This document shows, in pieces, positions 9,113-12,539 of a DNA stretch of 64,000 nt (position 1 is the first letter of the stretch; each line of letters opens with the position of its first letter). Location of the stretch: the NCBI GenBank assembly GCA_040755755.1, contig JBFLZW010000016.1:4663-68662 (forward strand). Direction: 5' to 3'. The translations under genes were made by a program, and so were the position numbers. The DNA comes from a bacterium. GTDB lineage: Bacteria; SZUA-182; DTGQ01. A model generated the notes under the pieces. The model was given only the letters and a program-made list of their open reading frames with translations. It searched no databases and was not told the DNA's origin.

Positions 9113-9445
9113 ATGATAAAAAGAAACCTCTATCTGCCTCCTCTGGTGCACGAGCAGCTCGTGCGCTTGTTATCGGCGCAGTCTGCTGTAGAGAGAGTCG
9201 TTCTGTTCGGCTCCCGCGCCCGTGGGGATGCAGAGGAGCGCTCGGACATTGATCTTTCGATTGAGGCACCGGGTGCTTTGCAGCGGCAGTGGCTGGAAAT
9301 CCTCTTTCGTCTGGAGGAAATCGACACCCTGCTGCCCATTCATGCAGTTCGATGGGAAGAGGCATCCGATGTATTGAAGCGACGGATACAGGTGGAGGGA
9401 AGGGTATTGTATGAACGATCCACAAGCAGTCCAAAGCGTTCGTAA
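9113..9445 (+). CDS. MNT-fold nucleotidyltransferase, MntA-like antitoxin (module 1)
   Basis: The product has 110 residues. Minimal nucleotidyltransferases of this family partner HEPN proteins; characterised MntA antitoxins silence the HepT RNase by adding AMP groups to a tyrosine. The catalytic motif GSx10DxD is intact: FGSRARGDAEERSDIDLSI at about residues 31-49. A third acidic residue in the following strand (IDTLLPIHAVRW region) completes the usual site. GGAG lies about eight bases before the ATG. The gene overlaps the HEPN partner by 35 bases. It is on the plus strand, convergent with queA. Confidence 0.85.
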   Translation: MIKRNLYLPPLVHEQLVRLLSAQSAVERVVLFGSRARGDAEERSDIDLSIEAPGALQRQWLEILFRLEEIDTLLPIHAVRWEEASDVLKRRIQVEGRVLYERSTSSPKRS

Positions 9446-9812
9446 CCTCGGAAACGCCCTGCAACGGCTCAGGGAAGCGCTTCAGGAGCCTGAAGGTAAC
9501 AGCCTGGCTGTCGATGGCACTATTCAGCGCTTTGAGTTCGTAATCGAGCTGTATTGGAAGATGCTCAAGCGCCTTTTAGCTTCGGAAGGGATTGAAACCT
9601 ATACTCCGAGAGAGTCTCTCCAGCGTGCATTTCAGGCTAACTGGCTTTCGGATGAAACAGCCTGGCTGCAAATGCTGAGAGACCGGAATGAAACCTCCCA
9701 TATCTACGATGAGGCAACGGCAAGACGAATTTATGGCCACATCAGAGATTACTTCCCGGAGATGGAACGAACATATCAATTCCTCTGCCACCGCTTCGGC
9801 GTCCAGCAATGA
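9411..9812 (+). CDS. HEPN-type nucleotidyltransferase substrate-binding protein, HI0074/HepT-like (module 1)
   Basis: The product has 133 residues, all helical. It belongs to the HI0074-type group long annotated as nucleotidyltransferase substrate-binding proteins, which share the HEPN fold. It contains RNETSHIYDEAT at about residues 90-101, an exact Rx4HxY motif: R and H are the RNase residues and Y is the residue AMPylated in characterised HepT toxins. It overlaps the MNT gene by 35 bases, as toxin-antitoxin partners often do. The likely role is an RNase toxin kept silent by its partner, though a non-toxic adaptor role cannot be excluded from sequence. Confidence 0.82.
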   Translation: MNDPQAVQSVRNLGNALQRLREALQEPEGNSLAVDGTIQRFEFVIELYWKMLKRLLASEGIETYTPRESLQRAFQANWLSDETAWLQMLRDRNETSHIYDEATARRIYGHIRDYFPEMERTYQFLCHRFGVQQ

Positions 9813-9890
9813 ACAAACCTTCCCTTTGTTTGCCATGAGGTTCTCAGCGCACTCCAGTGAACCTGAGTTGTTACGGCCAAGGAACCACCG

Positions 9891-10913
9891 CTACAGAATG
9901 AGCATGGCATCGCCGTAGCTGTAAAACCGATACTCTCTGGCCACAGCCTGCCGGTAGGCTTCCAGGACAAAGTCACGTCCTGCAAACGCAGCCACCAGCA
10001 TCAGCAGGGTGGATTTTGGCAGGTGAAAGTTGGTTATCAGGCTATCCACCATCCGCACCGTGAAGCCGGGGTAGATAAACAGGTCGGTCCATCCCTGTCT
10101 GGGCAGGTCTGGGTTTTGCCCCAAAGATTCCAGGACCCTGGTGGAGGTTGTGCCGCAGGCAATGATCCTGCCTCCTTTCTCTTTGGTCTCGGTGATTTTG
10201 CGCAGCGTGTCCTCCGGGACCTCGTAATACTCAGCTTCCATCCGGTGCTCTTCAATGTTTTCTGCCTTGACCGGCTGAAAGGTTCCCAGACCCACATGCA
10301 GGGTCACGAAGGCAATCTGCACTCCCTGGTTCCGGATCGCATCGAGCAGCGAATCGGTAAAATGCAGTCCGGCTGTAGGGGCTGCCACCGCCCCCTTTTG
10401 CCGGGCAAAGACCGTCTGGTAGCGGTCCCGGTCCTCAGTAGTCGGCGACTGGAAGTGATTGATATAGGGGGGGAGCGGCACCTGACCATACTCTTCGAGG
10501 ACCTGGTCAATGGTCATCTCCCCCGAAAAGGAGGCAATGCAGCGGCCCTGGCCTTTTTTCTCGACAACCCGGCCGGTCAGCGCTCCCTGAGCAATCAGGA
10601 AGGAATCGTTGACTTTGAGGTTTCCCCGGATAAGGACTTCCCACCGGTTATCCGCGACGGCCTTGAGAAAAAAGATTTCCAGCCTGCCGCCGGTTTGCTT
10701 TTGCCCAAAGAGACGGCAGGGAATGACCCTGGTGTCATTGAGGACCAGAAGGTCTTGAGGGTGCAGATATTCACAGACTGAAGGAAACAGGCGATGCTCG
10801 ATTGTTTGCGTGCCGCGGTGGAGCACCATCAACCGGGATGCGTCTCTGTGTGGCAGGGGATGCTGAGCGATCCTTTCAGGCGGAAGATCGTAGGAGAAGT
10901 CAGAAAGCTGCAC
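9891..10913 (-). CDS. queA: tRNA preQ1(34) S-adenosylmethionine ribosyltransferase-isomerase
   Basis: The product has 340 residues, the standard QueA length. It transfers and isomerises the ribosyl part of S-adenosylmethionine onto preQ1 at the tRNA wobble position, forming epoxyqueuosine. The family landmarks are FDYxLPxxxIAQ-like FSYDLPPERIAQHP at the start, LNDTRVIPCRLFG, AAPTAGLHFT, HVGLGTFQPV, and NFHLPKSTLLMLV near the end. Translation starts at a GTG (10913). The gene lies 18 bases downstream of queH, which performs the next step, so they form a two-gene unit. Confidence 0.96.
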   Translation of the reverse strand: MQLSDFSYDLPPERIAQHPLPHRDASRLMVLHRGTQTIEHRLFPSVCEYLHPQDLLVLNDTRVIPCRLFGQKQTGGRLEIFFLKAVADNRWEVLIRGNLKVNDSFLIAQGALTGRVVEKKGQGRCIASFSGEMTIDQVLEEYGQVPLPPYINHFQSPTTEDRDRYQTVFARQKGAVAAPTAGLHFTDSLLDAIRNQGVQIAFVTLHVGLGTFQPVKAENIEEHRMEAEYYEVPEDTLRKITETKEKGGRIIACGTTSTRVLESLGQNPDLPRQGWTDLFIYPGFTVRMVDSLITNFHLPKSTLLMLVAAFAGRDFVLEAYRQAVAREYRFYSYGDAMLIL

Positions 10914-10931
10914 GGGATGTGATTCCTTCCA

Positions 10932-11480
10932 TCAAGCGGTTTTCTTCCCCTGCGATCGATGATAGCGGTCTTTTTCACTGTATATGCATCCACAGTACTG
11001 CTGCCGATACAGCTCGAATTCTTTCGACAGGGAGATGCCCTCTTTCCATCCCTGCCGAAAGTCCCGGTAGAAAAAGGGTATTCCATATCGCTGCCCTGCC
11101 TCGGCTCCGATTCGGGCAATGGCCTCATGGTTTTGAAACTTGCTGTACAGCAGAGAAGAGGTAAAGTAATCGAACTTCCCCTTGCCCGCAATTTGCGCCG
11201 CTGCCTCCAGCCGCATATGATAGCAGGTCAGGCACCGGGAGCTTTCCCGGTAGGCAATTTCCCGCAGGAAGTCTTCGAGCAGGTACTCATCCCGGTAGAC
11301 CATGCGAACGCCCTGCGACTTGGCCCACTGCTGAACTGTTACCAGCCTGCGCTGGTATTCCTGGTAGGGGTGAATGTTGGGATTGAAGAAAAAGCCGATT
11401 ATTTCATGCTCTTCCTCAAGCAGCACCTTCCAGAGATAGACAAAGCAGGGAGCACAGCAGACATGAACCAGGATTTTCAT
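10932..11480 (-). CDS. queH: Epoxyqueuosine reductase QueH
   Basis: The product has 182 residues from the ATG at 11480, chosen because the family begins with MKILVHVCCAPC; an open frame extends further upstream without support. QueH removes the epoxide oxygen of epoxyqueuosine in tRNA, the last step of queuosine synthesis, and is the non-homologous alternative to QueG. Its cysteine set for the iron-sulfur site is visible: CCAPC near the N-terminus, CLTC at about 91-94 and YCGC near residue 160. It has its own sigma-70 promoter and is followed by queA. No other queuosine genes are in the window, so preQ1 comes from elsewhere. Confidence 0.93.
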   Translation of the reverse strand: MKILVHVCCAPCFVYLWKVLLEEEHEIIGFFFNPNIHPYQEYQRRLVTVQQWAKSQGVRMVYRDEYLLEDFLREIAYRESSRCLTCYHMRLEAAAQIAGKGKFDYFTSSLLYSKFQNHEAIARIGAEAGQRYGIPFFYRDFRQGWKEGISLSKEFELYRQQYCGCIYSEKDRYHRSQGKKTA

Positions 11481-11538
11481 TTTTTGTGTGTCTCTCCTTG
11501 GGCTTACGGTAGATCCTCTTATTCCAGATGTGAACTCT

Positions 11539-11567
11539 AAATTACCAATTTGTCGTGCGGTTGTCAA
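11539..11567 (-). promoter_or_regulatory. Sigma-70 promoter of queH-queA
   Basis: On the minus strand TTGACA (11567-11562) is 17 bases from TAATTT (11544-11539), about 58 bases before the queH start. Directly upstream of the -35 box a 9-base unit GTACATTCA occurs twice in tandem (11568-11576 and 11577-11585), which could be an operator shared with the divergent toxin-antitoxin module. Confidence 0.7.
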
Positions 11568-11716
11568 GTACATTCAGTACATTCAGTTACTTCCGCAGAG
11601 CTATCTGTTTGTGCTTTTTAACCTGGCAGTTAAAATTCATCGATACACTGAGGACTTTTAGCTTGACTTTGGAGGCTATGCCGGGTTTAAATGAAAATAA
11701 CCACGGGAGAGATGAA

Positions 11717-12097
11717 ATGGCAGAGATAAATATCGGCGATATACGAGACTACCTTTTAAAAAGAGAGCGGTCAAGGGCCTGTTCAAGGCAGGAAGAGCGG
11801 GATAAAATCGTTTCCGGGCTTCAGGCACTGACCATGATCTGGAGAAAGTATCAGCTTGACAGGGTCTTCTTATACGGCTCGCTCGCCGATTTGACTTTTC
11901 ATCGCGGATCGGATATTGATCTGGCGATTGAGCCGGAGGTTGGATTTGAAGAGCAGCTCAGGCTCTATTCTGAAATTAACCGGCATTTTAAACGGGAAGT
12001 CGATGTAAGATTATTAAAGGAATTACCTTTTTCCGAGAAGGTGATACGAGAAGGTATTGTCGTGTATGAAAGAGAGAATAGCCATACTGAAAAGTGA
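11717..12097 (+). CDS. MNT-fold nucleotidyltransferase, MntA-like antitoxin (module 2)
   Basis: The product has 126 residues from the ATG at 11717, chosen because GGGAGA lies seven bases upstream; the longer open frame has no such site. The catalytic GSx10DxD motif is exact in YGSLADLTFHRGSDIDLAI, at about residues 54-72, though the residues after GS (LAD) differ from the common RARG. VDVRLLKELPF provides the downstream acidic residue. It overlaps the next gene by 32 bases. Predicted to AMPylate and neutralise the HepT-like partner. It is divergent from queH and not closely similar to the module-1 protein, so the two modules are not a recent duplication. Confidence 0.84.
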   Translation: MAEINIGDIRDYLLKRERSRACSRQEERDKIVSGLQALTMIWRKYQLDRVFLYGSLADLTFHRGSDIDLAIEPEVGFEEQLRLYSEINRHFKREVDVRLLKELPFSEKVIREGIVVYERENSHTEK

Positions 12098-12539
12098 GAT
12101 GGAAAGGGATTATAAGCGGTTAAATATCCTTTTCGATAAATTTGAGAAATCCTACAGTGAATTTCTCGGCAGAGAGGAATATTCCAAACTGGTCGAGTCT
12201 GCGTTTTATGTGAATCAGATTTACAGCGGCTTTGAAAACATTTTCAAAAACATAGCCGGAACCTTCGAAAACACCATAGAGAAGGATTACTGGCATAAGT
12301 CCCTGCTGGAAAGGATAAGTTTAGATATCCAGGGCATCAGACCGGCCTTGGTTTCAGAAGAAAGCTATCAATGTCTGAATGAATTACGAGCATTCCGGCA
12401 CTTTTTCCACCATGCTTATGGCGCCGATATCGATAAGGAAAAATTTAAAATTGTTGCAGATAAGGTTTACAGGATTAAGGGGCTGTTCGGCAGGGAGATA
12501 GAGCGATTCTCCGCTTTCCTGGACAAGCTGATGGAATAA
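12066..12539 (+). CDS. HepT-like HEPN RNase toxin (module 2)
   Basis: The product has 157 residues from the ATG at 12066 (a TTG at 12057 is an alternative). It is predicted to be all helical with an N-terminal coiled segment. Near residue 115 it reads RAFRHFFHHAYG, which contains the exact Rx4HxY motif of HepT toxins: the R and H form the RNase site and the Y is the residue AMPylated by the antitoxin in characterised systems. The overlap with the MNT gene and the order (MNT first) match other type VII toxin-antitoxin pairs. RNA target and toxicity cannot be read from sequence. Confidence 0.84.
   Translation: MKERIAILKSEMERDYKRLNILFDKFEKSYSEFLGREEYSKLVESAFYVNQIYSGFENIFKNIAGTFENTIEKDYWHKSLLERISLDIQGIRPALVSEESYQCLNELRAFRHFFHHAYGADIDKEKFKIVADKVYRIKGLFGREIERFSAFLDKLME

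Follow-up and report, generated by a model that had tools for sequence, protein, structure and literature searches.

Two unlike MNT/HEPN modules, probably acquired independently, flank the queuosine genes queA and queH in a bacterial genome

Gene pairs that combine a minimal nucleotidyltransferase (MNT) with a HEPN protein are among the commonest toxin-antitoxin systems of bacteria. The Class I pairs consist of a HEPN protein of family PF08780 or PF01934 that carries the motif RX4HXY, and an adjoining PF01909 MNT that carries GSX10DXD (PMC7641770). Several of these pairs, from bacteria as well as archaea, were found to be toxic and to be neutralised, with AMP being placed on the tyrosine of the HEPN motif (PMC7641770). 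The HEPN protein of Legionella is likewise AMPylated and cleaves rRNA; the residues Q44 and E47, which form a metal site, are needed for its RNase activity, whereas the RX4H residues are not (PMC11586414). Moreover, an MNT-HEPN module has been described inside the lysine operon of Thermus thermophilus HB8 that is absent from strain HB27 (PMC2701414).

Two pairs of this kind surround the genes queA and queH in the window, i.e. the whole stretch of 64,000 nucleotides that was analysed (Table 1). The initial annotation had placed them on either side of the queuosine genes and on the opposite strand, and its coordinates are correct to the base. It had also reported exact GSX10DXD and RX4HXY motifs and overlapping frames, which are indeed present in both modules. 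Families and motifs alike uphold its description of the modules as MNT/HEPN toxin-antitoxin-like pairs that differ from each other. Judging from the matches to curated Pfam families, the translational overlaps and the existence of relatives elsewhere, the genes of both modules are real. The core genes queA and queH lie between the modules and are part of neither; they point towards module A and away from module B. The open frame of queH reaches from 10932 to 11573, with the ATG at 11480 as the likely start because relatives begin with MKILVH. The left flank of module A is formed by leuC, leuD, a pgpA-like gene and the prepilin peptidase gene pilD, the right flank of module B by secG followed by opp-type transporter genes. 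Module A thus separates pilD from queA, and module B separates queH from secG.

Table 1. Features of the locus, with positions as counted in the window.
Feature	Position	Strand	Family matches and motif
Module A, putative antitoxin: minimal nucleotidyltransferase, MntA-like	9113..9445	+	PF18765 7.9e-16; PF01909 9.3e-10
Module A, putative toxin: HEPN, HI0074 family	9411..9812	+	PF08780 1.4e-36; TIGR01987 2.6e-36
queA, tRNA preQ1(34) S-adenosylmethionine ribosyltransferase-isomerase	9891..10913	-	PF02547 1e-134; NF001140 1.7e-138
queH, epoxyqueuosine reductase	10932..11480	-	PF02677 3.6e-62
Module B, putative antitoxin: minimal nucleotidyltransferase, MntA-like	11717..12097	+	PF18765 2.9e-14; PF01909 5.1e-7
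Module B, putative toxin: HepT-like_2 protein	12066..12539	+	PF20797 2.5e-26; RX4HXY as RHFFHHAY

By its sequence, module A belongs with the Class I HEPN/MNT pairs (type VII-like), and within these with the PF08780/HI0074 family. The HEPN protein belongs to PF08780 and displays RX4HXY as RNETSHIY (residues 92-99), and the adjoining PF01909 MNT displays GSX10DXD as GSRARGDAEERSDID, starting at residue 33; the end of the MNT frame and the start of the HEPN frame share 35 nt. The HEPN protein clears the cut-off of the HI0074 model TIGR01987 and stays below that of NF047751 (20.5 versus 60), and the MNT matches the NCBIfam MntA antitoxin model NF047752 (1.6e-13) with 50.5 bits, below the cut-off of 60. 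Solved relatives of the HEPN protein are 1wty, 8xdj/8xeh and 1jog. The residues R92, H97, Y99, Q39 and E42 are invariant in all seven sequences of its class set, and Q39 and E42 align with the metal site Q44/E47 of the Legionella HEPN.

The toxin of module B matches PF20797 (HepT-like_2) alone, and neither PF01934 nor PF08780. By analogy, module B is best described as a PF20797 HepT-like pair that would work like the Class I pairs without strictly being a member of the class (PMC7641770). The GSX10DXD motif of its MNT reads GSLADLTFHRGSDID, from residue 54 as counted from the ATG at 11717, and the closest solved relative of this protein is the Legionella MNT (8xeh/8xeo). Read from the ATGs at 11717 (MNT) and 12066 (HEPN) the frames share 32 nt; the longer open frames from GTG 11555 and TTG 12057 are mechanical. 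The coding G+C of the module is 41-45%, versus 51% for the whole window. A phmmer search yielded no solved relative of the HEPN protein. The best of five single-sequence models (pLDDT 74.8) matched HEPN toxins best, with Z of 14.2-13.2 over 123-138 residues and weak Foldseek E-values, the first non-HEPN match following at Z 12.7. Since the HEPN toxins come out on top, the modelled protein likely has the HEPN fold, a helical bundle.

A comparison of 17 PF20797 sequences (alignment A1, in which HEPN B is numbered from TTG-frame residue 1 of the open frame or from ATG 12066) revealed a conservation of R111 and H112 in 16/17, of Y118 in 15/17 and of H116 in 8/17. As H116 is poorly kept, the exact RX4HXY of HEPN B is no proof of a textbook active site. 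Near-invariant in the alignment are WH (HEPN B 76-77) and FRH (in the region 110-118), plus the Tyr. These conserved residues are partly unlike the textbook RX4HXY, and judging from the alignment the active site of PF20797 may be different from that of other HepT proteins, which makes it worth testing, the more so for a family that falls outside the PF01934/PF08780 Class I set of PMC7641770. PF20797 domains were also observed inside open frames of 310-332 codons (G047:C93 and C80; loci L215, L222 and L224), which are possibly HEPN fusions.

The two modules are unrelated beyond the level of the superfamily. Their MNTs share 33% identity over 45 residues of the motif region, and their HEPN proteins belong to different Pfam families and display no similarity. 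A tandem duplication is thereby ruled out, as had been stated in the initial annotation.

The surroundings of queA and queH could be compared in three close relatives with readable flanks, each of which cleanly tests one side at most. The genome of the same genus (G001, locus L049) retains the order leuC-leuD-pgpA-pilD-queA-queH with a pilD-queA gap of 265 bp that lacks module A; upstream of queH the gene content is different, and the first 5 kb are free of modules. In a genome of the same family (G003, L051) queH and secG are divergent and 205 bp apart, with module B absent. No module was found near queH or queA in the third genome (G002, L050), where a SpoIID-like gene is situated between queH and queA and integrase-like open frames lie upstream of queH (L050 5443-6651). 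An ortholog of module B does occur in this third genome among nucleotide-sugar/polysaccharide genes (L176 4134-4956, G002:C198); the identity is about 70% for the HEPN toxin and 54% for the MNT antitoxin, the toxin being the better conserved of the two.

Gain of the modules in the present lineage would be the simplest reading of these comparisons, and their loss in the relatives is conceivable. A recent insertion is suggested by the relatives that lack the modules, the boundaries themselves not having been found: when the pilD-queA and queH-secG intervals were compared with their module-free counterparts in the relatives, no clear boundary that could represent an insertion scar emerged, and neither flanking repeats or target-site duplications at the modules nor mobility genes beside them were found. 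A phage or plasmid origin was considered and rejected, as HEPN B had no relative in phages or viral contigs and weak ones in plasmids, and no mobility gene adjoins. HEPN A has some distant relatives in the same phage/plasmid search.

The genome that harbours the locus is rich in MNTs, with 39 PF01909 matches in 5.26 Mb. Placing the listed MNT matches of this genome uniformly yields on average 0.96 doublets within 3.4 kb, and at least one in 62% of the trials; four are seen, which is somewhat above chance (P 0.016) and points to a mild clustering. As about one doublet is expected by chance, the presence of two modules around an interesting gene pair is unsurprising. The MNT load is very unequal within the genus, with 39 PF01909 matches in this genome versus 3 in the same-genus relative. 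A second double array, of the order PF20797 HEPN-MNT-PF08780-like HEPN-MNT, was observed on the minus strand of another contig of the genome (G000:C35, L180 3590-5192), where it sits in a glycosyltransferase/UDP-glucose dehydrogenase cluster without que genes; both of its MNTs read GSX9DXD, not GSX10DXD.

We have also surveyed 143 queA/queH loci (0.94 Mb, overlapping window copies included; flanks of 1.5-5 kb) with profiles for the MNT and three HEPN families, PF05168 not being among the latter; the profiles recovered the MNTs in 8/8 control loci. Some 80 queH neighbourhoods outside the window, 0.71 Mb in all, contained no PF08780, PF20797 or DUF86-type pair. Outside the window an MNT was found near queH in two loci, L067 and L071, which are from related genomes of one lineage and in which the MNT locus lies upstream, separated from queH by an acyl-CoA dehydrogenase-like gene. 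L071 contains a Class II PF05168 HEPN/MNT pair at 663-1360, about 1.3 kb from queH, and L067 an MNT at 223-609, about 3.7 kb from queH, the PF05168 HEPN being established for L071 only. These loci were rejected as a supporting case, given that they represent one lineage and a different HEPN class, and do not exceed what the class-wide MNT density predicts. Conversely, neither queA nor queH was found beside any of 85 HEPN/MNT loci other than that of the window (mostly 1.5 kb flanks, many overlapping).

What then could account for the observed arrangement? Very probably, the two pairs are independently acquired toxin-antitoxin modules that settled in two intergenic gaps, in which an AMPylating MNT silences a HEPN RNase, and that have queA and queH as neighbours by chance. 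More specifically, each module would be a translationally coupled operon that makes both MNT and HEPN. AMPylation by the MNT would take place at the motif tyrosine of the HEPN protein (Tyr99 for module A and, in alignment numbering, Tyr118 for module B), as is most likely because homologous Class I pairs are toxin-antitoxin systems (PMC7641770), and the AMPylated RNase would be held inactive. Failure of the MNT would then allow the HEPN protein to cut cellular RNA, upon which growth stops. By comparison with characterised relatives, AMPylation, RNase activity and toxicity are the most likely properties of both modules, and neither would be functionally tied to queA or queH in any particular way. 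The chance accretion that the initial annotation had allowed for is in line with the MNT-rich genome and with the absence of the modules from the nearest relatives, and mobile, independently acquired modules provide the best reading of the data.

The initial annotation had also raised a possible effect of tRNA modification on toxin action. In such a scenario tRNA would be the substrate of at least one of the two HEPN RNases, and the queuosine that QueA and QueH make at position 34 would protect or sensitise it, which would keep the genes together. The physical proximity of the modules to queA and queH is in its favour, and yet we consider it very improbable: the neighbourhood is absent from every other genome examined, the ortholog of module B is placed in a polysaccharide cluster, no such pair lies directly beside queA or queH in the other loci surveyed, and the modules and the queuosine genes are on opposite strands. 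In addition, a search of the literature at the level of title and abstract found nothing that ties HEPN/MNT pairs to queuosine. The tRNA-targeting HEPN protein of Aphanizomenon trims the 3' end of tRNA, far from the anticodon, and this counts against the link as well. A variant in which at least one HEPN RNase attacks tRNA in a queuosine-dependent manner, the toxin genes having been brought beside the queuosine genes recently, is equally hard to credit. The suggested check, conservation of queA/queH beside MNT/HEPN pairs in other genomes, turned out to confine the arrangement to this genome among those searched, an outcome that the initial annotation had named as a refutation.

Alternatively, both modules could have been present here ancestrally and have been lost in the relatives, queA and queH being situated inside an old toxin-antitoxin or defence locus. 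The mild clustering of MNT doublets fits this idea, as does the gene order around queA-queH in the relatives, which differs on at least one side. Nevertheless, it is quite improbable considering that neither module is found at this place in any relative, that the flanking genes (leuCD, pgpA, pilD, secG, opp) are core genes related neither to defence nor to mobility, and that the same-genus genome has three MNT matches in all. The 'hot spot' for such modules that had been put forward is not borne out either, the corresponding place in the relatives being free of MNT/HEPN modules. It is also unlikely that the pairs are not toxin-antitoxin systems and have another role in nucleotidyl transfer. 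Such a role was left open for the Thermus module, for which antibiotic inactivation was suggested (PMC2701414), and would agree with the poor conservation of the motif-position His in PF20797 (8/17) and with the dispensability of the RX4H residues for the RNase activity of the Legionella HEPN (PMC11586414). On the other hand, bacterial and archaeal Class I pairs are toxic and neutralised (PMC7641770), and module A bears all Class I marks, and its residues R92, H97, Y99, Q39 and E42 are invariant in the 7-sequence set.

With independent acquisition as the preferred reading, the modules are two new members of a known MNT/HEPN kind, and an ordinary case. The closest characterised relative of module A is the Legionella pneumophila HEPN-MNT pair of the HI0073/HI0074 type (8xdj, 8xeh). 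The HEPN proteins are homologous (phmmer 4.3e-12) and have RX4HXY and the Q/E metal-site residues in common, and the MNTs share GSX10DXD. In module A the MNT comes first, whereas most PF08780 relatives found in its class have the HEPN gene first. Both modules resemble the type VII system HepT/MntA of Shewanella oneidensis in having both motifs and in being small two-gene operons. Nevertheless, the MNTs match the MntA family below the NCBIfam MntA cut-off, and in contrast to SO_3166 (PF01934) the HEPN proteins belong to PF08780 (A) and PF20797 (B). Module B has the same gene order and a similar overlap as its PF20797 counterpart in the third relative (G002:C198), which differs in being located away from queA/queH, in the nucleotide-sugar/polysaccharide cluster. 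Finally, the Thermus HB8 module is comparable in that it is found in a core-gene neighbourhood of one genome and is missing in a relative, although it is a single module inside an operon, and here two unlike modules surround a gene pair. The HB8/HB27 case (PMC2701414) thus provides a precedent for module insertion near core genes. The present locus adds a further case of MNT/HEPN modules between such genes and is of little wider import, with module B and its PF20797 toxin as a useful by-product.
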